Notes under the pieces: generated by a model
The model's database searches: none
Seen by the model: the letters and a program-made list of their open reading frames with translations, nothing else
Told to the model about the DNA's origin: nothing
Source of the DNA: Chloroflexota bacterium
GTDB taxonomy: Bacteria; Chloroflexota; Anaerolineae; J102
Assembly: GCA_003353825.1 (NCBI GenBank)
Contig: PIVW01000214.1
Location: 1-9,325 of the forward strand
DNA: 9,325 nt
Direction: 5' to 3'
Translations under genes and position numbers: made by a program
Shown: positions 1-9,325 of the stretch, piece after piece
How the letters are laid out: the number at the start of each line of letters is the position of its first letter
How positions within the stretch are numbered: position 1 is the first letter of the stretch

Positions 1-119
1 GACTTCGCGTGACGATCACGAATTTCAGTCGATGATGCCCCCACACCTAGTGGCTGGTTGTGTTAAACGTCTAGATATCGTGCGAGGAAAATCCGCATCA
101 CGCGAAATCCCAGAGAACC
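1..119. mobile_element. MITE-like element, left copy (outer end outside the window), ISL3-type ends
   Basis: Bases 1-62 are identical to 9218-9279, and 63-109 match 9280-9325 with about 11 substitutions and one indel. The inner end (98-119), reverse-complemented, begins GGTTCTCTGGGATTTCGCGT and matches 9208-9229 at 19 of 22 positions, so the element has terminal inverted repeats. By analogy with the other copy, the missing outer end should lie 10 nt to the left, giving about 129 bp in all. No transposase fits in this length. Ends beginning GGYTCTYT resemble ISL3-family insertion sequences; that assignment is from memory of the family. The element provides the last 18 codons and the stop of the truncated M14 gene. 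The expected 8-bp target duplication on this side would be 120-127 (gttccaca). Confidence 0.7.
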
Positions 120-755
120 GTTCCACATAAAGTCTGCACCACCTCCCATCTCGGGGCTGATGGTAGGGATGCCTCTGCGCACGGAGATCTCGTGCAGCGT
201 GCCGTGCCAGGGTGTGCGGCAGAATACATCTATCAAACCGTATGCCAGGGCCATTTGCTTGCTCGCTGCCACCACCTCGGGTGTCAGGTCTGGAGTATCC
301 TCGTAGATCGTATACCACACGAACGCGTCCGGCCCGCCGGAATGGATATCGATCCAGTAGTCTGCCTTGTACACGACCTCGTTGAGATAGGCGTAGGCAA
401 GACGCTGGGCCTCGGTGCCATTGGGGTCACCTTCCCCTTGGCGGTTCAAGTCCTTGCCGTCCCAGATCACCTCTCGCTTTTGGAACTCAAATCCGGCCGT
501 GTTGACAACCGGCACTGCAATTAAGGTTCCTTTGATATCTTTGGGTTCGATAGTACGCAGCAGTTGGCCGATGGCGACTGTGCCGATGTTCTCCTCGCCG
601 TGGAGCGCTGCGTCTACCAGTAGGGTTGGTCCATCCTCTAATCCACGAACGATATTGATTGGAATGCTGACCGGAATACGACCGCGGGTTTCATCCACCT
701 GCATGTAACCAAAAGCGCGTTCGCCACGCCCACATTCGATGTTGCTGATTTTCAC
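63..755 (-). CDS. M14-family deacylase (succinylglutamate desuccinylase/aspartoacylase type), C-terminally truncated
   Basis: This is a 230-residue protein starting with GTG, preceded by AAGGAA at good spacing and 27 nt after the epimerase gene. It aligns without gaps to the 338-residue paralogue at 2783-1767 from the N terminus to residue 213. Zinc ligands H52, E55 and H138, the substrate-binding N104-R105 pair and the catalytic base E202 (SPEMGGG) are all present. The family hydrolyses N-acyl amino acids to a carboxylate and a free amine using one zinc. After N212 homology stops, and residues 213-230 are read from the inserted repeat element, ending in TAA. About 110 C-terminal residues are therefore missing; in aspartoacylases this domain narrows the active-site channel. 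The protein may be inactive, or active with altered specificity. The lost 3' end should lie left of base 1. Confidence 0.85.
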   Translation of the reverse strand: MKISNIECGRGERAFGYMQVDETRGRIPVSIPINIVRGLEDGPTLLVDAALHGEENIGTVAIGQLLRTIEPKDIKGTLIAVPVVNTAGFEFQKREVIWDGKDLNRQGEGDPNGTEAQRLAYAYLNEVVYKADYWIDIHSGGPDAFVWYTIYEDTPDLTPEVVAASKQMALAYGLIDVFCRTPWHGTLHEISVRRGIPTISPEMGGGADFMWNGSLGFRVMRIFLARYLDV

Positions 756-782
756 AATGTTCCTTTTTATCCTTTGAATAGA

Positions 783-1760
783 CTATACAGTCGTTGAGTG
801 TAACCAAGTCATGTAGTCTGCTATGCCTGTTGTCAGGTCGAACTTGGGTTGGAAACCGATATCCTCTCGCATTCGGGTGATATCCAGGGGACCCCGCTGC
901 ACATCACGCCCATAAGCCACATCTGCCTCGCCATTTGGACCGACGATCTCGTAACGGAACTTGGGCTCCACCGTTGTGAAGTCGTCCAGCACCTGCTGCA
1001 AAGTGTAGGCGACTCCGTAGGAGACATTGTAGGCATCGTAGCTGTGTTTGGGAGCCTCCAGGAGCGCAATCAACTCGCCTGCGATGTCGGCAACGTGGGT
1101 CCAGCTCCGGGCAACTTCTACACCCCGAACTCGCAGAACCTGCCCCTCAAGCAGCGCTCTGGCCATTTCACAGATCGCCGACATTCCGGTTCGAGACCGA
1201 GTCGGCCTTTCCATGGGACCATACGTTGCGCAGACGCGGCCCGAAACGGTGTTTATCCCGTACATGTTCTTATAGCGGTTGCAGACCGCCTCACTGGCGA
1301 CTTTTGCGATGGCATAGAGATTATCGCCACGAGCCGGCGTATCTTCTGTCACCGGTTTGGTGGGGTCCTCTATGCCGCCGTAGAGGCCGTTGGAACTGAC
1401 ATAGACGAACGAGCGAACGCCATTTTCTCTGGCTGCGTCAAGGGCCTTTATCGTGCCCATGAAATTGATGTTCATGATACGCGCCGGCATCGCACGCTCG
1501 GTCTCGGGCCTTGGCGTCATAGCAGCGCCGTGGATGATGCCCTCGGGTCTGTGCTCCTGCACAATGGCCGACAGCTGCTCTTGATCCTCAACATCTCCCG
1601 GCAACAGATCTATACGATCACGAACCGGCTCTAGAAAATCAAGTGCGTCTTGATCGGGCGGGGTGCGGTACAGTGCCACCACCTGATTGTCCTGCTCGGC
1701 CAGCAGCCGAACAACGTTGATCCCAACGAAGCCGATGGCGCCGGTCACCAGGGTTTTCAT
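783..1760 (-). CDS. NAD(P)-dependent epimerase/dehydratase (extended SDR family)
   Basis: This is a 325-residue cytoplasmic enzyme of normal length for the family. An N-terminal Rossmann motif TGAIGFVG (6-13, GxxGxxG) binds the dinucleotide, GDV at 55-57 is the usual adenine-contacting site, and YVSSNGLYG (120-128) carries the catalytic Ser. The YxxxK pair is Y149/K153. The C-terminal part (DITRMREDIGF...) is the typical sugar-epimerase substrate-domain ending. Its ATG lies 6 nt after the stop of the M14 gene, and its Shine-Dalgarno GGAG sits inside the last codons of that gene, so the two are probably translationally coupled. The family acts on nucleotide sugars and other hydroxylated substrates. 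Its place between two deacylase genes suggests that it modifies the same compound, but the substrate cannot be read from the sequence. Confidence 0.9.
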   Translation of the reverse strand: MKTLVTGAIGFVGINVVRLLAEQDNQVVALYRTPPDQDALDFLEPVRDRIDLLPGDVEDQEQLSAIVQEHRPEGIIHGAAMTPRPETERAMPARIMNINFMGTIKALDAARENGVRSFVYVSSNGLYGGIEDPTKPVTEDTPARGDNLYAIAKVASEAVCNRYKNMYGINTVSGRVCATYGPMERPTRSRTGMSAICEMARALLEGQVLRVRGVEVARSWTHVADIAGELIALLEAPKHSYDAYNVSYGVAYTLQQVLDDFTTVEPKFRYEIVGPNGEADVAYGRDVQRGPLDITRMREDIGFQPKFDLTTGIADYMTWLHSTTV

Positions 1761-1766
1761 AGCCTA

Positions 1767-2783
1767 TTACTCCCACGTCCACTGGTGAGTTGTTAGATCG
1801 ACTTCGTCCATTTTATCGCCCAACACACCCAGGAACTGATTCGGTGGGCAGTGGGGCCAGACCAGGCCGGTGTTGAGAACCGTGCCGTCGGCCGGCGCAT
1901 AATACCTGGCCAGCTCATCACCCGTTGTCGGGTCGTATTTGATGGCGAAGAGGTCGCCCTTTTTGAGCATCTGTCCGCGCTTGGCTTCCACAAGCATCAG
2001 CGCTCCTCTGCCGTCATTCAAAATCTCGGTATGACCATCCCAGATGATCGCTTTGTTCGACTCAGTCTCGATCTCACCTGGCAAGATGCCCATCAACTTC
2101 ATCACGTTGACAATGCCACGAGCGCACCAATCGATCTGCTTGCGTCCGTTTTGATAGAAATCCCCACCGCCCCCGACCTCGGGCGTAATGGCGGGGATGC
2201 CCGCGTTCATGCTTTCCTCCAGAATGGTACCGTGCCAGGGTGTCTTGCCCATTACTTGTTCGAGACCGAACGCCATCGACATTTCTTTCGTTTTACGTAG
2301 CGTCTCAGGAGAAGTGTCCTTGGTCTCATGATAGAGTGTATACCAGACAAGCCCAACCGAGCTGCTGGAATGGATATCGACGTGCGCGTCACCTTTCAGG
2401 ATCACTTCATGGAACAGGTGATAAACAAGTCGCTCGGTGACCGTGCCATCCTTTTTGCCCGATTTCTGGCGGTTCGGGTCCTTATCGTCCCAAAGGACAT
2501 GGCGCTGGTCGAACTCGCGACCACTCATGTTCACACAGGGCACGGCGATCAGGTTGCCACTCATTTGACTAGGATCGATCTCTCGTAGCACTTTACCTAG
2601 GCCAAGAGGGCCGATGGCCTCGCGTCCGTGCAGGGCTGCAGTCACCACCAGCGTTCTTCCCGGCTTTGCGCCCATGACAATCGTGACGGGCAGTTCGACG
2701 GGGATCTGCGCCGTCGTATAGGTGACAAGTAGCCGACCTCTGACCTTTTGACCGGACTGTCCAACGATATCTCCAACTTTCAT
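1767..2783 (-). CDS. M14-family zinc deacylase, succinylglutamate desuccinylase/aspartoacylase type (full length)
   Basis: This is a 338-residue protein, a typical length for AstE/AspA/DoeB-like enzymes that cleave N-acyl groups from amino-acid-like substrates. The zinc site is H52-xx-E55 (ALHGREAIG) with H138 (VDIH). D102-P103-N104-R105 matches the conserved substrate-binding Asn-Arg. E202 in TPEVGGGGD is the catalytic base. Residues from about 240 to 338 form the C-terminal domain that the shorter paralogue lacks. The ATG follows AGGAGA by about 10 nt and lies 72 nt after the DppC-type permease gene, in line with operon membership. There is no signal peptide, so it should act in the cytoplasm on imported substrate. 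Proximity to M24 hydrolases recalls the ectoine pathway, where the deacylase is DoeB/EutE. The exact acyl group is not predictable. Confidence 0.9.
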   Translation of the reverse strand: MKVGDIVGQSGQKVRGRLLVTYTTAQIPVELPVTIVMGAKPGRTLVVTAALHGREAIGPLGLGKVLREIDPSQMSGNLIAVPCVNMSGREFDQRHVLWDDKDPNRQKSGKKDGTVTERLVYHLFHEVILKGDAHVDIHSSSSVGLVWYTLYHETKDTSPETLRKTKEMSMAFGLEQVMGKTPWHGTILEESMNAGIPAITPEVGGGGDFYQNGRKQIDWCARGIVNVMKLMGILPGEIETESNKAIIWDGHTEILNDGRGALMLVEAKRGQMLKKGDLFAIKYDPTTGDELARYYAPADGTVLNTGLVWPHCPPNQFLGVLGDKMDEVDLTTHQWTWE

Positions 2784-2855
2784 AGTGTTGTTTTCTCCTG
2801 TTCTGTGAATAAATATGTTGTATCCAATGGGGAGCTTTCAGACCACTATTTTCGG

Positions 2856-3767
2856 CTAGGCTTCTCCTGTTCCTCGCAGTCTGGGATCGAGGACATCGCG
2901 CAGCCAATCCCCCAGGAAAATGATACCGAGGACCGTGACTGTAATCGCCACGCCTGGGAATGTTGCCAACCACCAGGCTCCGGCCAAATAATTGCGACCA
3001 TCGGCCAGCATTAAGCCCCAAGTTACGGTAGGGGGTTGCACGCCCACGCCCAGGAAGCTCAACGCTGATTCGGCGATGATTGTGGCGGCTACTTGCAATG
3101 TTGCCAGCACTATCACTGAGGCCATGGCGTTGGGCAAGATGTGACGAAAGGCGATCCACAAACCGGACTGACCGATCACGTGAGCTGCGGTCACGTACTC
3201 GCGCTCCCGCAGAGTTAGAACCTCGGCTCGCACCACGCGCGCGTAGCTCTGCCATTGTACCAATCCCAGGGTCACTACCACGGTCAGGACACTGGGGCCG
3301 AGCATCCCTACGATGGTCATCGCCATCAAGATGAAGGGGATAGCGAAAAAGGCATCCACAATACGCATAGACACGGAGTCGATCCAGCCGCCACGAAAGC
3401 CTGCCAGAAGGCCCACTGAGATTCCGAGAAAGCCCGCAATGACTACGGCGCTAATGCCGACGAGAACGGAGATACGTGATCCGATGATGAGCCGACTGAG
3501 CAAGTCCCGCCCCATTTGATCTGAACCGAGAATATAATTCCAGGATCCTCCTTCCTGCCAGACGGGGGGTACCAGCCTTTGCTTGAAATCGAATTCCGTC
3601 GGATCATGGGGCATGATCAGGGGTGCAAAAATGGCCATGAAGAATACGAGTCCGACGATAATCACGCCGATGATCCCGACCGGGCTCTTGCGTAGACGGC
3701 TCAACATATAGTTCCGTCGTGTTCTTGCCGGTTTCAATTGGGGCATGGATGGCGATGTTTCAGTCAT
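2856..3767 (-). CDS. Dipeptide/oligopeptide-type ABC transporter permease (DppC/OppC type)
   Basis: This is a 303-residue inner-membrane permease. Residues 1-28 are a basic cytoplasmic tail, the first membrane segment spans about 29-52 (OppC N-terminal domain), and the hallmark LGSDQMGRDLLSRLIIGSR follows at 80-98. Further hydrophobic segments run to about 288. The EAA loop that contacts the ATPase is at about 191-212 (YVTAAHVIG...HILPN). It would pair with the DppB-type permease, which ends 71 nt upstream. No clear Shine-Dalgarno precedes the ATG at 3767, only a weak GGA. The class imports peptides, nickel, opines and other small solutes, so the subunit alone does not identify the cargo. Confidence 0.93.
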   Translation of the reverse strand: MTETSPSMPQLKPARTRRNYMLSRLRKSPVGIIGVIIVGLVFFMAIFAPLIMPHDPTEFDFKQRLVPPVWQEGGSWNYILGSDQMGRDLLSRLIIGSRISVLVGISAVVIAGFLGISVGLLAGFRGGWIDSVSMRIVDAFFAIPFILMAMTIVGMLGPSVLTVVVTLGLVQWQSYARVVRAEVLTLREREYVTAAHVIGQSGLWIAFRHILPNAMASVIVLATLQVAATIIAESALSFLGVGVQPPTVTWGLMLADGRNYLAGAWWLATFPGVAITVTVLGIIFLGDWLRDVLDPRLRGTGEA

Positions 3768-3838
3768 TGAGTATTCCAGAGAAGGCTAGAGGCACCGGTT
3801 GATGAAGCAAAGCGCGGCACTAAAATAGCGTCTCGATG

Positions 3839-4756
3839 TCAGTCATAACTGATCCTGGGATCGACGACTGTATAGATGACATCTGTGAGTAGGTTGATGA
3901 CCAAGACTGCCATGGCGGCGATGAATATACCGGCCTGCACCACGGCCATATCCCGTGTCTGAACCGCCTTGACCAACAGGCGCCCCATGCCGGGCCAGGC
4001 AAAGACCGTTTCCACGATTACCACACCACTGAAAAGCCACGCCATCTGCAAAGCGAAGACAGTGATCACTGGAATCAAGGCGTTTCGAAGCGCATGCTTG
4101 ATGAGGATGACGCGGTCATGCAATCCTTTGGACCTGGCCGTGGTGATGTAATCCTGGCGAACAACCTCGAGCATGCTGGAGCGGATAATGCGGGTCAGGG
4201 TTGTCGCCAGTCCCAGGCCCAGAGTGACCATGGGCAGAATGATACTGCCTGGCTTGTCTCGACCCGAAACCGGGAAAATGGGATAGGCCACTGCCAGAAA
4301 TAAGATTAACATGATTCCAAGCCAATACGACGGCATGGCGCGGCCAATGGCCGAGAAGGTCGTGGCGACCAGATCCAGGAGAGAGTTGGGTTTTAGGGCC
4401 GAAGTAATTCCAAGAGGAAGGGATACAACCAGCGAAAAAATCAGGGCAGCGAAAGCGAGTTCCAGAGTGGCAGGGATGCGTTCGAGCACAATCGGCATTG
4501 CGGGGGCGTGATAGCGCATAGATCTGCCGAAATCGCCCACAACCAGTTTGGAGAGGAATTTCCAGTACTGGACATATAACGGCTCGTCGAGTCCATACGC
4601 ATGCCGCAGCATTTGGATCTCCTCTTGATTCAGATCGAAGGGCGCCAACTGAGCTATTGGATCACCTTTCAAGCGGATGACGAAGAAGACGATCAGTGTG
4701 AGGATGAATATTGTCGGGATGATTTCCAACACACGGCGTATCAGATATCGTTGCAC
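3839..4756 (-). CDS. Dipeptide/oligopeptide-type ABC transporter permease (DppB/OppB type)
   Basis: This is a 305-residue inner-membrane permease starting with GTG at 4756; a weak AGGGAA lies about 10 nt upstream. The N-terminal MQRYLIRRVLEIIPTIF is typical of DppB proteins, with the first membrane segment at about 9-28. A periplasmic region with DEPLYVQYWKFL and GDFGRS (57-79) is also characteristic. Later membrane segments lie at about 98-120, 129-160, 172-190, 227-250 and 273-297. The EAA loop is at 202-230 (DYITTARSKG...NALIPV). The gene follows the solute-binding lipoprotein gene by 95 nt, with a strong hairpin between them, and precedes the DppC-type permease, the usual Dpp order. Together the two permeases form the translocation pore. 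Confidence 0.93.
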   Translation of the reverse strand: MQRYLIRRVLEIIPTIFILTLIVFFVIRLKGDPIAQLAPFDLNQEEIQMLRHAYGLDEPLYVQYWKFLSKLVVGDFGRSMRYHAPAMPIVLERIPATLELAFAALIFSLVVSLPLGITSALKPNSLLDLVATTFSAIGRAMPSYWLGIMLILFLAVAYPIFPVSGRDKPGSIILPMVTLGLGLATTLTRIIRSSMLEVVRQDYITTARSKGLHDRVILIKHALRNALIPVITVFALQMAWLFSGVVIVETVFAWPGMGRLLVKAVQTRDMAVVQAGIFIAAMAVLVINLLTDVIYTVVDPRISYD

Positions 4757-4806
4757 GGGATGACTTCCCTGGAATGATTTTTCGTGGGCCTGTATAGGGG
4801 CCTCAA

Positions 4807-4840
4807 CGAGGAGGGGACATCACCTGATGTCCCCTCCTCG
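4807..4840 (-). terminator. Intercistronic stem-loop after the solute-binding protein gene
   Basis: Bases 4807-4822 (CGAGGAGGGGACATCA) are perfectly complementary to 4825-4840. This gives a stem of up to 16 bp, in practice about 14 bp with a 6-nt loop. It starts 11 nt past the stop codon of the binding-protein gene. No U-run follows on the transcribed strand, so it is unlikely to be a complete intrinsic terminator. In other binding-protein-dependent transporters such hairpins shield the upstream message from 3' exonucleases and reduce read-through. The result is many more binding proteins than permeases; that role is inferred here. Confidence 0.75.
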
Positions 4841-4851
4841 TCTAGCGGCAG

Positions 4852-6456
4852 CTATTCGGTAAATTGAGCGTTGTGCATCCAGTAGAAGTTATCAGGCGGG
4901 ATCGGCCATTCAAGGCTAGAATCTTTGCCGTACGCAGTCTTCATGAAATACATCGTGTTGTACGGTCGTCCTTCGGCCACAATCGCCTGCATGTCGAGGA
5001 ACATCTGCTCCCGAGTCTCAGGATCCATTTCCACTAAGGCAGACCGCCAGAGTTCATCGAAATCCTCGCTGACCCAATTGGAACGTTGGCGCGTCTCTCC
5101 AGAGTGGAAGCCTTTCATGGCAATCCAGGGATCGAAGAAACTATTGCTCAGAGCCAGCATCATGATCTCTTCGTTGGCCCCTTCGGGATAGTAAACCTGT
5201 TCGCGGAAGGTGCTTGGTTCCATGATCTGAAGGTCAACGTTGAAACCGGCTGCGGATAACATGGCAGCGGTCGCCTCGGCCACTTCTTTCTGTAAGAACC
5301 AGGATGTGGTGGAGTGGAAGGTAATCGGCTCACCGTCGTATCCTGCCTCTTCCATCAACGCCTTTGCTTTTTCGGGATCATAGTTGTATTGGTCGTAGTA
5401 GTCGGGGCTCCAAGACATGGTCGGAGGCGTGATGCGTGAAGTTACCGGCGTGCCCATATCTCCGATTAGTTCTACCAAGGCGGCATCGTCAATGGCGTAA
5501 TCGATGGCCTCGCGAATCAATGGATCTGCAGTGACAAAGCCCTCGTCGGCGCGGTGCACAAGCAACATTGTTCGGGTCGTTGGCGCTTTAATCAATTCGA
5601 GATTGCCAGCTTCTTCGACACGTGGCCAGTCTTGTGGCTCAACCGGATCGGTGATGTCTACACCCCCGGTCAATAGCTCAGCCACTCTGGTTGAGGGCTC
5701 TGGGATCACGCGGAATGTCAGTTCCTCGATCTGCGCGGGACCTTGCCAGTAATCGGGGTTAGCGACGAGGGTAATATGGTCATCGCGCATCCATTCATCG
5801 AACATAAAGGGACCGGTGCCGACTGGATTCTTGGCGAATTCCTCTTTGCCGATCTCTTGCACCAGTTTGGGCGGAACGTTACCACAGCCCGTGCCGGCGA
5901 GCTTTGAGAGCATGTCCGGAACGGGATAAGCTGTTACGATATCAATGGTGTAGTCATCGACGATATTCACCTCATCGATGTGTGTCCATTGCGAGTGCAC
6001 GATCATCTGATCGTCGTTAAGGATGCGGTCGATGCTGAATTTGGCGGCCTCGGCGTTGTAGGGTTCACCGTTGTGGAAATTGACACCTTCTCGCAATTTG
6101 AAGCGCCAGGTCAATTCGTCAACGATCTCCCAGCTTTCGGCCAGTGCCGGTTCAAATCCATCATGGTTTACGCGGCCGCGCCACACCAGGCAGTCGAACA
6201 TATTCGAAACGACCCAGGTGGTGACGATGGCCCAGTCTGTGGGGGGATCCAGTGCCGAGACGTCCTCGGCAATACCGACCGTAAGGGTTTTTTGTATCTC
6301 AGCGGGGGCTTCTTCTTCCGCTTCCGGTTCTTCGGCAGCAGGTTCCTCCTCTACGACCGGCGGCTGAGCAGCTGGAGCGGCCGGTGCAACGCAGCCAGTT
6401 ACCAGCATGACGGCTACCAGGATAAGGCTGAGCGGTAGAAACAGTTTGCTCTTCAT
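4852..6456 (-). CDS. ABC transporter substrate-binding lipoprotein, family 5 (DppA/OppA type)
   Basis: This is a 534-residue extracytoplasmic binding protein. I place the start at the ATG at 6456: AAGGAG lies 8 nt upstream, and translation then begins with a clean lipoprotein signal (MKSKLFLPLSLILVAVMLVT), lipobox VTGC and modified Cys22. The frame stays open to 6621, but that start would bury the signal 55 residues in. A low-complexity Ala/Pro/Glu linker (about 23-52) tethers the domain to the membrane, as is common in Chloroflexota. The mature domain shows family-5 features: TLTVGIAEDVSALDPP, ALAESWEIVDELTWRFKLREG and YDPEKAKALMEEAGYDG. It would deliver substrate to the two downstream permeases. 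The family binds peptides, opines, sugars and metal chelates, so specificity is open. Confidence 0.93.
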   Translation of the reverse strand: MKSKLFLPLSLILVAVMLVTGCVAPAAPAAQPPVVEEEPAAEEPEAEEEAPAEIQKTLTVGIAEDVSALDPPTDWAIVTTWVVSNMFDCLVWRGRVNHDGFEPALAESWEIVDELTWRFKLREGVNFHNGEPYNAEAAKFSIDRILNDDQMIVHSQWTHIDEVNIVDDYTIDIVTAYPVPDMLSKLAGTGCGNVPPKLVQEIGKEEFAKNPVGTGPFMFDEWMRDDHITLVANPDYWQGPAQIEELTFRVIPEPSTRVAELLTGGVDITDPVEPQDWPRVEEAGNLELIKAPTTRTMLLVHRADEGFVTADPLIREAIDYAIDDAALVELIGDMGTPVTSRITPPTMSWSPDYYDQYNYDPEKAKALMEEAGYDGEPITFHSTTSWFLQKEVAEATAAMLSAAGFNVDLQIMEPSTFREQVYYPEGANEEIMMLALSNSFFDPWIAMKGFHSGETRQRSNWVSEDFDELWRSALVEMDPETREQMFLDMQAIVAEGRPYNTMYFMKTAYGKDSSLEWPIPPDNFYWMHNAQFTE

Positions 6457-6477
6457 TTTTGGCTCTCCTTGATAAAG

Positions 6478-6490
6478 GTCAACGGTTGAC
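6478..6490. promoter_or_regulatory. Palindrome in the binding-protein leader (possible operator)
   Basis: GTCAACGGTTGAC is a perfect 6+1+6 inverted repeat ending 21 nt upstream of the binding-protein start codon. It is a size typical of a dimeric regulator site, and it could equally form a small RNA hairpin near the ribosome-binding site. No regulator gene is present in the window, and I do not recognise the motif as a known site. The palindrome is certain; its function is a guess. Confidence 0.4.
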
Positions 6491-6522
6491 GATGGGTTTT
6501 CTCTTGATCGACGATAAAACGC

Positions 6523-6537
6523 TTGGTCGATTACCAA
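6523..6537. promoter_or_regulatory. Inverted repeat TTGGT-N5-ACCAA (possible GntR-type operator)
   Basis: TTGGTCGATTACCAA has 5-bp perfect arms around 5 nt, in the 201-nt gap between the second M24 gene and the binding-protein gene. The arms resemble sites of the FadR subgroup of GntR regulators (for example PdhR, TTGGT-N3-ACCAA), but the spacer is 2 nt longer. With the nearby palindrome at 6478-6490 it marks this gap as the likeliest control region inside the cluster. Confidence 0.35.
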
Positions 6538-6568
6538 CCTACACTTAATGCTTATCTCTATGCTATCA

Positions 6569-6580
6569 ATCACCTCCTTT
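6569..6580 (-). promoter_or_regulatory. Orphan extended Shine-Dalgarno tract in the leader (AAAGGAGGTGAT)
   Basis: On the transcribed strand the tract AAAGGAGGTGAT is a 12-nt complement to the standard 3' tail of 16S rRNA. It lies 112 nt upstream of the binding-protein ATG, which has its own AAGGAG. No ATG, GTG or TTG stands at a workable distance: the nearest TTG is 3 nt after GGAGG and opens a three-codon frame. Known precedents for such orphan tracts are 30S-bound mRNA-stabilising sites (the STAB-SD of Bacillus cry3A). A relic of a lost gene start is the alternative. Confidence 0.45.
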
Positions 6581-6657
6581 GTTCGCAGCAAGTGCGTTTT
6601 TTTAGGTTCGCTGATTGCCAACTCGGCTGGAACGGACAGCGCAGTTTTGTGATGCGG

Positions 6658-7857
6658 TTAAGCTGGAATCGTCAGCTCATCCAAACTACGCGGATAGTTC
6701 GTCAAAATGTTGCAGCCCGTGTTGGTCACAACGATGGTGTCGGAGTGGCGGAAACCGCCAATATCTGGCGCGTAGAATCCTGGCTCTACGCTCATTACCA
6801 TGCCTGGCTGCAGAATGGTGTCATCGCCGCGGTCGAAGAATGGCATCTCATGCCCCTCGTAGCCGCGGCCGTGGCCTGTGTGGTGGTGGCGCATATGCAG
6901 CACGCCCATATTCTCCGCGAAATCGTAGACCGCCTGATCTACGGTGCTACAAGGAATCCCCGGCCGGATCATCTCGAAAGCAATATCTTGGGCCTTGCAC
7001 ATGATGTCGAAGAGCCGTCGCTGCTCGGCAGTGGGCGTGCCTAAAATCATTGTACGTTCAAGTTCGCTGGAGTGTCCGTCCAGAATGGCGCCGCCAGACC
7101 AACTGATGATGACATCGCCTTCTTCCATGGGGCGGTTGGTGTCAAGCGGGTGAGGTAGGGCGCTGGTGGGGCCGGCGATCAGCCCTCCAGGCACGGGAAT
7201 ACTGCCGTTGTCCTGACCAATATAGTCGATGCCCAGCTTCGTTAATTCATCGAACATCATACTCACCCCCTCGGCGCAAGCCACGAGACTGACTTCGATC
7301 TCCGTCTTGCCTGACGCGATGATGTCCTGGATGAAGCGGTGTTGCATATTGCCGAAGATGACCGAGTTGCGGATCAGTTGGATCTCGGCCGGGGACTTGA
7401 TCATCCGCATTTCCTCGATCAGGTAGGGCCAAGTTGCGATCTCGATGCCGCCCAGCACGTCGGACAACGAGGGGCCGCGGTAACCCGGCGCTCCATAAGA
7501 TAGGGAGTCGGCCGCCAGGCGATCGGGCGAGAGGCCCATCCTGGTGATAAGCTCAAAAAGGTACTCAAATGGATGGCGGAGATCAGGATACTCGGGATAG
7601 ACCTGTACCGTCTTGAGCCAGGGCACACGGATAGGAAGATGCGCCTCTTCCAACTCTGGGACGAGGATACCCGGCTCACCCTCGGCTGGTACGAGCAAAA
7701 CCACGGGGCGCTCGCTCGGCGAGTGTCGAAAGCCGGTTAGGTACAGAATGCTTACTGCGCTGAAGAGACAGAGGGCGTCTCTTTCTGCGTCCCGCAGGGC
7801 TTCTCGAACCCTGTCGAGTCTTGCGGTATATTCCTCAGGCGGAAGCTCGATCATCAT
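6658..7857 (-). CDS. M24-family hydrolase, creatinase/Xaa-Pro dipeptidase-like, with altered metal site
   Basis: This is a 399-residue protein with a creatinase-type N-terminal domain (about 9-150) and an M24 pita-bread domain (about 160-390). H329 (TGHGRG), H336-E337 (GHEMPF) and E358 (MSVEPGFY) are the usual conserved residues. Of the five metal ligands, the first Asp is replaced (ISWSGG, 251-256), the second is Glu265 (SSELERT) and the last Glu is Ser372 (GGFRHSDT). ELERT closely matches the ALERT segment of metal-independent creatinase, whose Glu contacts substrate. I infer a creatinase- or ectoine-hydrolase-like enzyme cleaving an amide or amidine C-N bond rather than a proline peptidase. 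The frame opens with two ATG codons; AAGGAG is 11 nt before the first. The first ATG overlaps the stop of the preceding small ORF. It is cytoplasmic, with no signal peptide. Confidence 0.87.
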   Translation of the reverse strand: MMIELPPEEYTARLDRVREALRDAERDALCLFSAVSILYLTGFRHSPSERPVVLLVPAEGEPGILVPELEEAHLPIRVPWLKTVQVYPEYPDLRHPFEYLFELITRMGLSPDRLAADSLSYGAPGYRGPSLSDVLGGIEIATWPYLIEEMRMIKSPAEIQLIRNSVIFGNMQHRFIQDIIASGKTEIEVSLVACAEGVSMMFDELTKLGIDYIGQDNGSIPVPGGLIAGPTSALPHPLDTNRPMEEGDVIISWSGGAILDGHSSELERTMILGTPTAEQRRLFDIMCKAQDIAFEMIRPGIPCSTVDQAVYDFAENMGVLHMRHHHTGHGRGYEGHEMPFFDRGDDTILQPGMVMSVEPGFYAPDIGGFRHSDTIVVTNTGCNILTNYPRSLDELTIPA

Positions 7858-8048
7858 GACCAGGAGGTCTCCTTACCTGGGTGACCGGGAGGATAGGGAT
7901 GGACGCAGTAGGCGATGACCCGTTTGCCAGACAAAGCATTGTACACACAGATGTCGAAAGCCGACAAAAACAACGTGATGAGCGTAGCATAACGTACGGC
8001 ACGGGTCAAACCTAAATCTCGGTAAAACTTTAGTGATTCTTTTCTCAT
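7854..8048 (-). CDS. Small hypothetical protein, 64 aa, one possible membrane segment
   Basis: The ATG overlaps the stop of the upstream M24 gene (ATGA), and its TGA overlaps the ATG of the downstream M24 gene (ATGA), so the ORF fills the gap exactly. This double overlap is the main argument that it is translated, by coupling. The product begins MRKESLKFYRDLGLTRAVRY and has a hydrophobic stretch at about 21-39 (ATLITLFLSAFDICVYNAL, one Asp). It ends in a Pro/Gly/His-rich tail (PYPPGHPGKE). I recognise no family. Its first half is more AT-rich than its neighbours, so a decayed remnant or a non-coding spacer remains possible. Confidence 0.45.
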   Translation of the reverse strand: MRKESLKFYRDLGLTRAVRYATLITLFLSAFDICVYNALSGKRVIAYCVHPYPPGHPGKETSWS

Positions 8049-9181
8049 TGCATTACCCGCCAACGCAGATCCCAGGGTATGGAAAACCGCTCGGCGCCGT
8101 CCGCCGTGATGACGATATTCTCGTCGATGTGAGTGAAGCCGGCATACGGTTCGACGTTGCGTCGGGCGTGGAAGGAGAAGGTCATCCCCGCCTCCAGCAC
8201 AGCATCCTGGTCTGTATCCAAGTTTCCCCACAGCGGCCACTCGATGGCATCCATTCCCTGGCCGTGGATGTCGTGATGCGGGGACTGCCTGTCAGTTAAC
8301 TTCCAGCCATCCTCCACGTACACCTGTTCCAGGGTGGCTGTCAGTTCGCTGAGTCTCACGCCGGGTCTGGCCTGCTTGCGCATCTCATCGTAGGCGCGCA
8401 ACTCCGTGTCCATCAGTTTCAGTTCCAACCGGGTGGGTTCCCGATAAGCACAGGTGACGTTCAACTCGCACCAGTGCCCACTCGGCCCGGTAACCTCCAT
8501 GTGGTAGTCCACCAGTCCGTCGAGAGTGACGACTTTCTCGCCGGGGATGTCGCCGTTGAAGAATACCAGCAGGTCGCGGCCACCTCCGGCCAGGATGACT
8601 TTGCAAGCCTCGGCAGCCAATTCTGCCTGGGTCCTGCCCGACTCCAACACCTCGACGAAGCGTTCCATGGCCGCTTTGGCCAGAACCCACAGTTCCCTGT
8701 TTTGCTCGATTTCCAGGGGGCTTTTTACGGCCCGAACCTGGTCGATGACCCGGTCAGCGTTGACGAATTCGACGTCAGGCAGGCTGCTGGCGAGGATCTC
8801 GTAGGTGCCGATGCCCATGGTTTGGCTGTAGCCGGCGATTCCGACCTTGCCTTGGGTCAGCCCTTTGCGCTTCATTGCCTGAGCGATTTCTACGACGATC
8901 TTTGGATCGCCGGTGACATCGGTGATCCAGTCGTTCTCCGCTATCATCTCAGCCACTGCGCCGCTGGTCAGCGTCAACATCGGCTCACCCGCCAATGGCA
9001 TCAGGATGGCACCGTCGTGAGCCCACAGATGGAAGTCGGTCAGGTAACGAAAATAGCCGCGACCTGTCCACCAGTGGCCTTTGCCGGCCAGGATCAGTGC
9101 ATCCAGACCCGCGCTCGACATCGACTCTCGTAATCGCTTGAAACGCAGATTGCGTTCCTCAATTCCGGGCTGTGTAGCCAT
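8045..9181 (-). CDS. Divergent M24-family hydrolase (aminopeptidase P/creatinase fold)
   Basis: This is a 378-residue protein. An N-terminal creatinase-like domain spans about 9-150, ending in VRAVKSPLEIEQNRE, the classic join to the M24 domain (about 160-375). H306 in IHGQGMD fits the conserved GHG histidine, and E314 in AIEWP the HE-P glutamate, but its preceding His is Ile. The other metal positions are changed: Glu229 (MEVTG) and Glu239 (CELNVT) replace the two Asp, His338 (FSFHARR) replaces Glu, and HIDEN (351-355) replaces the final R-x-E-D. It is therefore unlikely to be an ordinary metal-dependent Xaa-Pro peptidase; non-peptidase M24 enzymes include creatinase, ectoine hydrolase and DMSP lyase DddP. 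The ATG follows GAGAGG by about 8 nt. It is the first gene of the train visible here and starts 26 nt from the repeat element. Confidence 0.85.
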   Translation of the reverse strand: MATQPGIEERNLRFKRLRESMSSAGLDALILAGKGHWWTGRGYFRYLTDFHLWAHDGAILMPLAGEPMLTLTSGAVAEMIAENDWITDVTGDPKIVVEIAQAMKRKGLTQGKVGIAGYSQTMGIGTYEILASSLPDVEFVNADRVIDQVRAVKSPLEIEQNRELWVLAKAAMERFVEVLESGRTQAELAAEACKVILAGGGRDLLVFFNGDIPGEKVVTLDGLVDYHMEVTGPSGHWCELNVTCAYREPTRLELKLMDTELRAYDEMRKQARPGVRLSELTATLEQVYVEDGWKLTDRQSPHHDIHGQGMDAIEWPLWGNLDTDQDAVLEAGMTFSFHARRNVEPYAGFTHIDENIVITADGAERFSIPWDLRWRVMQ

Positions 9182-9207: not shown

Positions 9208-9325
9208 GGCTCTTTGGGACTTCGCGTGACGATCACGAATTTCAGTCGATGATGCCCCCACACCTAGTGGCTGGTTGTGCCAGCGCCTAGATATAGTGTG
9301 GAAAAAATCAGCACCACGCGAAATC
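9208..9325. mobile_element. MITE-like element, right copy (outer end outside the window), ISL3-type ends
   Basis: The element starts GGCTCTTTGGGACTTCGCGT, the inverted partner of 98-119, and is in the same orientation as the left copy. Inside it, CCACAC (9257-9262) pairs with GTGTGG (9296-9301) and GGCTGG with CCAGC around a 5-nt loop, so this copy is an imperfect palindrome; the pairing is weakened in the left copy. By analogy the outer end should lie about 10 nt past the window. The expected 8-bp target duplication on this side is 9200-9207 (tcgcttac). It sits directly upstream of the first M24 gene, so it may separate that gene from an older promoter or supply a new one. Confidence 0.68.

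Follow-up and report, generated by a model that had tools for sequence, protein, structure and literature searches.

A gene cluster combining M24 hydrolases, M14 deacylases and a peptide-type importer in a Chloroflexota bacterium, with a possible role in small-amide catabolism

The gene cluster and its closest relative

The DNA considered here, hereafter the window, is the 9325-base stretch PIVW01000214.1 of a Chloroflexota bacterium, apparently one whole contig, whose genes are discussed as a possible module for the import and catabolism of a small amide. Its eight open reading frames (ORFs) lie on the minus strand and each score above the Pfam gathering thresholds; they encode two M24-family proteins (M24a and M24b), two M14-family proteins (M14a and M14b), the binding protein and two permeases of an importer, and an extended short-chain dehydrogenase/reductase (SDR). 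An earlier note on this DNA had described eight collinear genes with short gaps, and this was borne out by gaps of 6–198 bp (187, 198, 95, 71, 72, 6 and 27 bp, 5′ to 3′ from M24a); the set had also been called fused, a word to be dropped since the genes are all separate. The coordinates are collected in Table 1.

Table 1. Genes and other features of the window
Feature	Position	Strand	Remarks
M24a: Creatinase_N + Peptidase_M24, 378 aa	8045..9181	-	Non-canonical site H227, E239, H306, H338
M24b: distantly related second Creatinase_N + Peptidase_M24, 399 aa	6658..7857	-	Site W, E265, H329, E358, S372
Family-5 solute-binding lipoprotein, 535 aa	4852..6459	-	ATG at 6459 taken as start; lipobox-like VTGC
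Strong hairpin in the gap between binding-protein and permease genes	4806..4841		dG -39.8 for 4797-4851
DppB/OppB-type permease, 305 aa	3839..4756	-	GTG start
DppC/OppC-type permease, 303 aa	2856..3767	-	
M14a: AstE/AspA-type deacylase, 338 aa	1767..2783	-	H52, E55, H138, E202 retained
Extended SDR, NAD-dependent epimerase/dehydratase, 325 aa	783..1760	-	
M14b: AstE/AspA-type, 230-aa ORF	63..755	-	GTG start; interrupted after ~212 codons by a miniature inverted-repeat transposable element (MITE); 339 aa in relative
Left part of MITE (128-bp element) within M14b	1..119	-	Contig end lies inside the element
Second MITE copy, directly upstream of M24a	9208..9325	-	Truncated by contig end; no copy here in L001

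The window gene order was found to be kept, at 90–100% protein identity, in a Chloroflexi metagenome-assembled genome (MAG; isolate Bse_26, genome G001, locus L001), and the arrangement is therefore not a product of chance. L001 likewise has a hairpin between its binding-protein and permease genes. At the DNA level, M24a, M24b, the binding-protein gene and M14b are 86–88% identical to L001, and within window positions ~760–2830 the identity reaches 99.7% (M14a) and 99.3% (SDR); judging from the sequences, this high-identity stretch could be a recombination tract or a strain chimera of the assembly.

In the relative, whose contig of 33 kb was read as two loci (L019 and L020), the window set lies inside a larger island totalling five M14 genes, four M24 genes and two importer sets. 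The order begins with an allantoinase-like amidohydrolase, an aldo-keto reductase, M24a″, a binding protein, an M14 carboxypeptidase, DUF1028 and two permeases; continues with an M55 D-aminopeptidase, two M14, M24a′, M24a, M24b, a binding protein and two permeases; and ends with M14a, the SDR, M14b, M14c and a Gfo/Idh oxidoreductase. A gamma-glutamyltransferase and two aminotransferases are encoded on the opposite strand. It was also observed that paired aminotransferases (L020, 13627–15947; L115, 1762–4028) had the guanitoxin cyclodehydratase GntC as best NCBIfam match, all four below its cut-off, and that such GntC-like pairs accompany M24–M14 clusters.

Of the peptide-type ATP-binding cassette (ABC) importer announced in the earlier note, the binding protein (SBP_bac_5) and the two permeases (BPD_transp_1) were recovered by Pfam as Opp/Dpp-type parts. 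This composition is common to the Dpp/Opp/Nik peptide-nickel importers, from which the cluster differs in that no ABC ATPase gene was seen with these parts, neither among the ORFs of the window, a short contig, nor among those of the relative's 33-kb contig. The relative's genome gave 18 oligo_HPY ATPase matches, none of them on that contig (C96). None of the importer proteins reached an NCBIfam equivalog cut-off. The absence of ectoine-specific importers, which had been pointed out, held among the genes seen in the window and the relative's contig, where neither Ehu nor Ueh/Tea genes were found.

About 109 terminal bases are repeated at both window ends. These repeats are copies of a 128–129-bp MITE with 21-bp inverted ends, matched 19 times in the relative's genome, 13 of them across the full searched stretch, and perfect 8-bp target duplications were found in all eight copies inspected (loci L004–L011, L126 and L128 being among those read). 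Among 199 genomes of the class, the MITE occurred in one, the relative itself. Two of seven ISL3-type transposase loci carry the MITE end, with 2 mismatches, and the element is probably mobilised by an ISL3-type transposase. Because the MITE enters M14b after ~212 codons, the 230-residue ORF is the remnant of a 339-residue gene; the second M14 gene of the earlier note is thus of AstE/AspA type but broken in the window, the L001 copy retaining 339 residues. A circular or tandem unit was rejected as the origin of the end repeat, since a MITE of 128 bp that occurs dispersed accounts for it. As to an RNA element at the ends, no Rfam match was obtained up to E 1 in the window or in L008. A plasmid or viral origin was rejected on the search outcomes: the window had no plasmid match at near-identity, and among viral contigs neither a close relative of M14a nor the 62-base repeat was found.

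Active sites and clades of the M24 and M14 proteins

The canonical prolidase-type M24 metal site consists of five ligands, D-D-H-E-E, holding two metals. By alignment, this set is kept by neither window protein: M24a presents H-E-H-H-N/D, with four of five positions altered and the histidine alone retained, and M24b presents W-E-H-E-S, with three of five altered and H329 and E358 retained. In M24a, the residues H227, E229, H236, E239, E260, H306 and H338 were invariant in 72/72 aligned sequences (68 taken from 120 listed of 337 matches, plus the window and three loci); the M24b alignment comprised 29 sequences from 120 listed of 1850 matches plus the window, near-copies, fragments and some others having been omitted from both by choice. 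The ectoine hydrolase DoeA acts via a covalent glutamate, Glu-255. Which M24a residue occupies the first metal position varies with the alignment used: H227 stands there by MAFFT and by the canonical-protein profile, and the DoeA profile places E229 opposite the DoeA glutamate.

With 23% identity and positions in separate supported clades, M24a and M24b are not mutual duplicates, and a simple M24 duplication was rejected; M14a and M14b are paralogues, 47% identical over ~213 residues. The proposal that both families are duplicated thus held for M14, the M24 proteins being distant subfamilies. Both M24 proteins lay outside the DoeA clade in the trees, which were built without creatinase sequences, and M24a, its sister clade M24c and DoeA stood together on one side (93/90) in one tree only. 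In structural alignments of models, M24a was closest to DoeA, and M24b was tied between creatinase and prolidase. M24a has 337 similar database clusters, whose source names, where given, are mostly Xaa-Pro or M24 peptidase, although the peptidase metal site is lost in the 72 sequences that were aligned. Two of these proteins, P0001 and P0007 (99% and 67% identical to M24a, respectively), come from contigs given the equal length of 30,009 bases, so that a near-identical strain is likely to have a second copy of M24a as well.

Membership of the M14 proteins in the AstE/AspA deacylase family was supported by PF24827, with 68.4 and 71.3 bits for the two proteins against a gathering score of 25 bits, and by H52, E55, H138 and E202, which are invariant in the M14 alignment and which we take to have zinc-binding and catalytic roles. 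The trees that had been proposed as a check united M14a and M14b in a clade (99/99) that excludes both DoeB and AstE, with AstE and others forming long branches. The nearest solved structure to M14a was DoeB (3.3e-18), followed by a homologue with an unnamed substrate (5.7e-18).

Recurrence of the M24–M14 arrangement

Neighbouring genes in other genomes were named by their best BLAST match to a small reference set, with Pfam and NCBIfam checks for selected genes only. M24a was found to be rare: matches occurred in 4/400 genomes of the phylum at 1e-20, only the relative exceeding 30% identity, and the alignment search found it in 8/396 genomes of the class at 1e-60; it was also found in Thermoleophilia and Hyphomicrobiales MAGs. 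One cluster (G513) has the order M14–SDR–DUF1028–M24a–permease–permease–binding protein, and another (G666) combines M24a with two M14 genes, HyuB, an SDR and one permease. The SDR homologues of these two clusters are 42% identical to the window protein, and their M14 proteins are only 26–28% identical to the window type, of which they form a sister group in the tree.

Enzymes of cyclic-amide type recur near M24a. In 8/10 genomes and 5/7 lineages, HyuB is no more than 10 kb away from M24a (P ~8e-8, uniform gene placement being assumed and four near-kin genomes being counted as one lineage), and HyuA is present at the M24a locus of G622. An allantoinase-like amidohydrolase lies ~1.1 kb from M24a in four genomes (G427, G454, G514 and G586) and is 45–46% identical to the copy of the relative (G001), which itself lies ~1.1 kb from M24a″ and scored 318 bits against the 358-bit cut-off of the allantoinase model. 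In locus L003, M24a adjoins a protein that passes the hydantoinase/carbamoylase cut-off (367 vs 204 bits). These loci recall those of N-methylhydantoinase, 5-oxoprolinase and caprolactamase (HyuA/HyuB), with the difference that HyuA and HyuB are neighbours in other genomes and members of neither the window nor the relative's contig.

Window-type M14 profiles matched 71/396 class genomes at 1e-30, with tandem genes in a dozen. An M24 gene was present in the fetched stretch at 10/12 strong window-type M14 loci (at least 160 bits; G712, G720 and G658 lie in the same range outside the 12) and at 1/16 weaker ones of the same class (109–145 bits, 15 genomes, the author's pick from the list, many of which look like one related cluster). 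As to the survey that had been proposed as a check, the order was found kept in L001 and the M24–M14 linkage recurs. M24b had matches in 37/396 class genomes at 1e-80, and 5/16 fetched loci contained permease or binding-protein genes. Tandem arrays of four window-type M14 genes were seen in G724, G665, G720, G712 and G658, some of the matches with one internal stop, and in L112 and L113 tandem M14 arrays are clustered with M24c, S9, aminotransferase and OCD-family genes. A stretch of the Natrialba magadii plasmid pNMAG02 (L040, 84657–103823) carries a family-5 solute-binding protein (SBP5) importer, DUF1028, an M24b homologue (43%), a canonical M24, a proline dehydrogenase and an aldehyde dehydrogenase. 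Haloarchaeal M14 contexts and Cytobacillus and Streptomyces M24 contexts showed no comparable cluster, and no description of the cluster was found in the literature searched, which included few subscription papers.

Possible function and competing readings

Four findings together support a small-amide module with an open-then-deacylate logic: the metal sites of the M24 proteins are altered, the active site of M14 is intact, M24–M14 linkage recurs, and neighbours of cyclic-amide type are present. We tentatively propose that the cluster serves the catabolism of an imported cyclic amide or N-acyl amino-acid derivative, by means of a non-peptidase M24 hydrolase and an M14 deacylase. The substrate would be a small amide, either an N-acyl derivative of an amino acid or a cyclic amide of lactam, hydantoin or ureide type, taken up by the lipoprotein and the two permeases and powered by an Opp/Dpp-type ATPase encoded elsewhere. 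The ring or the first amide bond would be cleaved by an M24 hydrolase from the M24a/M24c clade, which stands on the DoeA side of the M24 family; the M14 zinc deacylase, as its retained residues suggest, would then remove the acyl group, and the SDR, with the aminotransferases, Ldh_2, OCD-family and Gfo/Idh enzymes of relatives, may process the amino-acid product. The open-then-deacylate reading put forward in the earlier note is thus partly supported by the M24 and M14 sites and their linkage, but peptide scavenging remains a serious rival.

Several observations weigh against this proposal. Both M24 proteins score far below the DoeA models (TIGR02993, cut-off 613 bits: M24a 46, M24b 75; NF038259, cut-off 575: 43 and 87), and the M14 proteins far below the DoeB model (TIGR02994, cut-off 402.7 bits: M14a 82.8, M14b 70.6). 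Foldseek with M24a placed a prolidase above EutD. M24b stands on the prolidase side of the tree, grouped with canonical peptidases (93/90), is common in other contexts, and has its haloarchaeal homologue beside a proline dehydrogenase in Natrialba magadii. HyuB is missing from both the L003 stretch and the 33-kb contig of the relative. The ten M14 loci that have an M24 gene do not count as independent cases, because nine of them carry one related cluster (M24c 72–100% identical) of M24c and an S9 peptidase with, in part, aminotransferase, OCD and PrpD genes and SBP5 importers; moreover, importer genes do not separate the M14 sets (9/12 strong, 10/16 weaker). Finally, peptide-type enzymes (M55, M14 carboxypeptidase, gamma-glutamyltransferase and S9) share these islands and clusters.

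Some of this would suit a peptide-scavenging system, in which the importer takes D-amino-acid, gamma-glutamyl or proline-containing peptides, the M24, M14, M55 and S9 enzymes trim them, and the M24 changes are peptidase tuning. This somewhat unlikely reading stays alive because of the peptide-type neighbours, to which the Dpp/Opp type of the binding protein and permeases may be added, and of the Natrialba cluster, in which a peptide importer and DUF1028 accompany the M24b homologue, the canonical M24 and the proline dehydrogenase; a reading on a proline compound, drawn from this context, is retained solely as a rival. M24b shares the fold of prolidase and aminopeptidase P, their side of the tree and two metal-site residues (H329 and E358). 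However, D-D-H-E-E is kept in neither M24 protein, and M24a has neighbours (HyuA/HyuB, allantoinase-like and carbamoylase) that are not peptide enzymes. If instead one M24, most likely M24b, were a guanidino-compound amidinohydrolase, the nearby cyclic-urea enzymes would handle the ring form of a creatine-like compound. Identity to creatinase is 20–22%, no creatine pathway genes were seen, no creatinase-named model appeared among the NCBIfam matches at E 1e-5, the trees held no creatinase, and M24b is widespread elsewhere, which leaves this reading improbable. It is more improbable still that the M24a proteins are catalytically dead and serve as binding or regulatory partners: non-enzymatic M24 relatives exist, the Spt16 domains being inactive and found among the structural matches of the M24 models, and a single canonical ligand is retained in M24a, yet the invariance of its seven residues is what a functional site would be expected to show.

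True ectoine or hydroxyectoine degradation with a different importer is the least credible alternative, with hardly any probability left to it. EutD and EutE have been described as a two-enzyme module (PMC8739950) and DoeA as creatinase-like (PMC3187862), and metal ligands are given for the M24-type DddP (PMC4108388). In an earlier survey, EutD orthologues were confined to Proteobacteria (PMC5924519); more phyla are listed in PMC13188858, in the main text of which ‘Chloroflexi’ was unmatched. The window shares the M24 and M14 families of the DoeA/EutD and DoeB/EutE pair, and one M24c cluster that was examined contains aminotransferases and a gene of the OCD family, to which EutC belongs (146 bits vs the 472-bit cut-off). 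Nevertheless, the window proteins fall below the model cut-offs and in clades apart from DoeA and DoeB, and the residues of DoeA at the five metal-ligand positions (E-P-Y-M-T, n = 2 sequences) occur in neither M24a nor M24b. Ectoine degradation proper was rejected on these model cut-offs, trees and active-site residues. The window and its relatives further differ from the ectoine pair in having an SBP5/Opp-type importer instead of Ehu or Ueh/Tea, several M14 copies and, elsewhere, hydantoinase-type neighbours.

Returning to the small-amide module, a more far-reaching form of it, which we consider quite unlikely, is that M24a and its sister M24c represent a catalytically new branch within the pita-bread fold, one that opens lactam, hydantoin or ureide rings and that, with M14, makes up an unrecognised cyclic-amide system. 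In such a branch, the D-D-H-E-E centre may have been rebuilt in M24a as an invariant set of three histidines and one glutamate holding a single metal, and the M24–M14 system, scattered through Chloroflexi, would be analogous to yet independent of EutD/EutE. With the altered M24a site, it could be tested directly by biochemical means how the chemistry of this fold shifts among prolidase, creatinase, DddP and ectoine hydrolase. If M24a-type enzymes do open cyclic amides together with M14 deacylases, the Xaa-Pro and M24 peptidase names that they carry would be wrong, and uncultured Chloroflexi would possess an overlooked route for the breakdown of nitrogen-rich small molecules.

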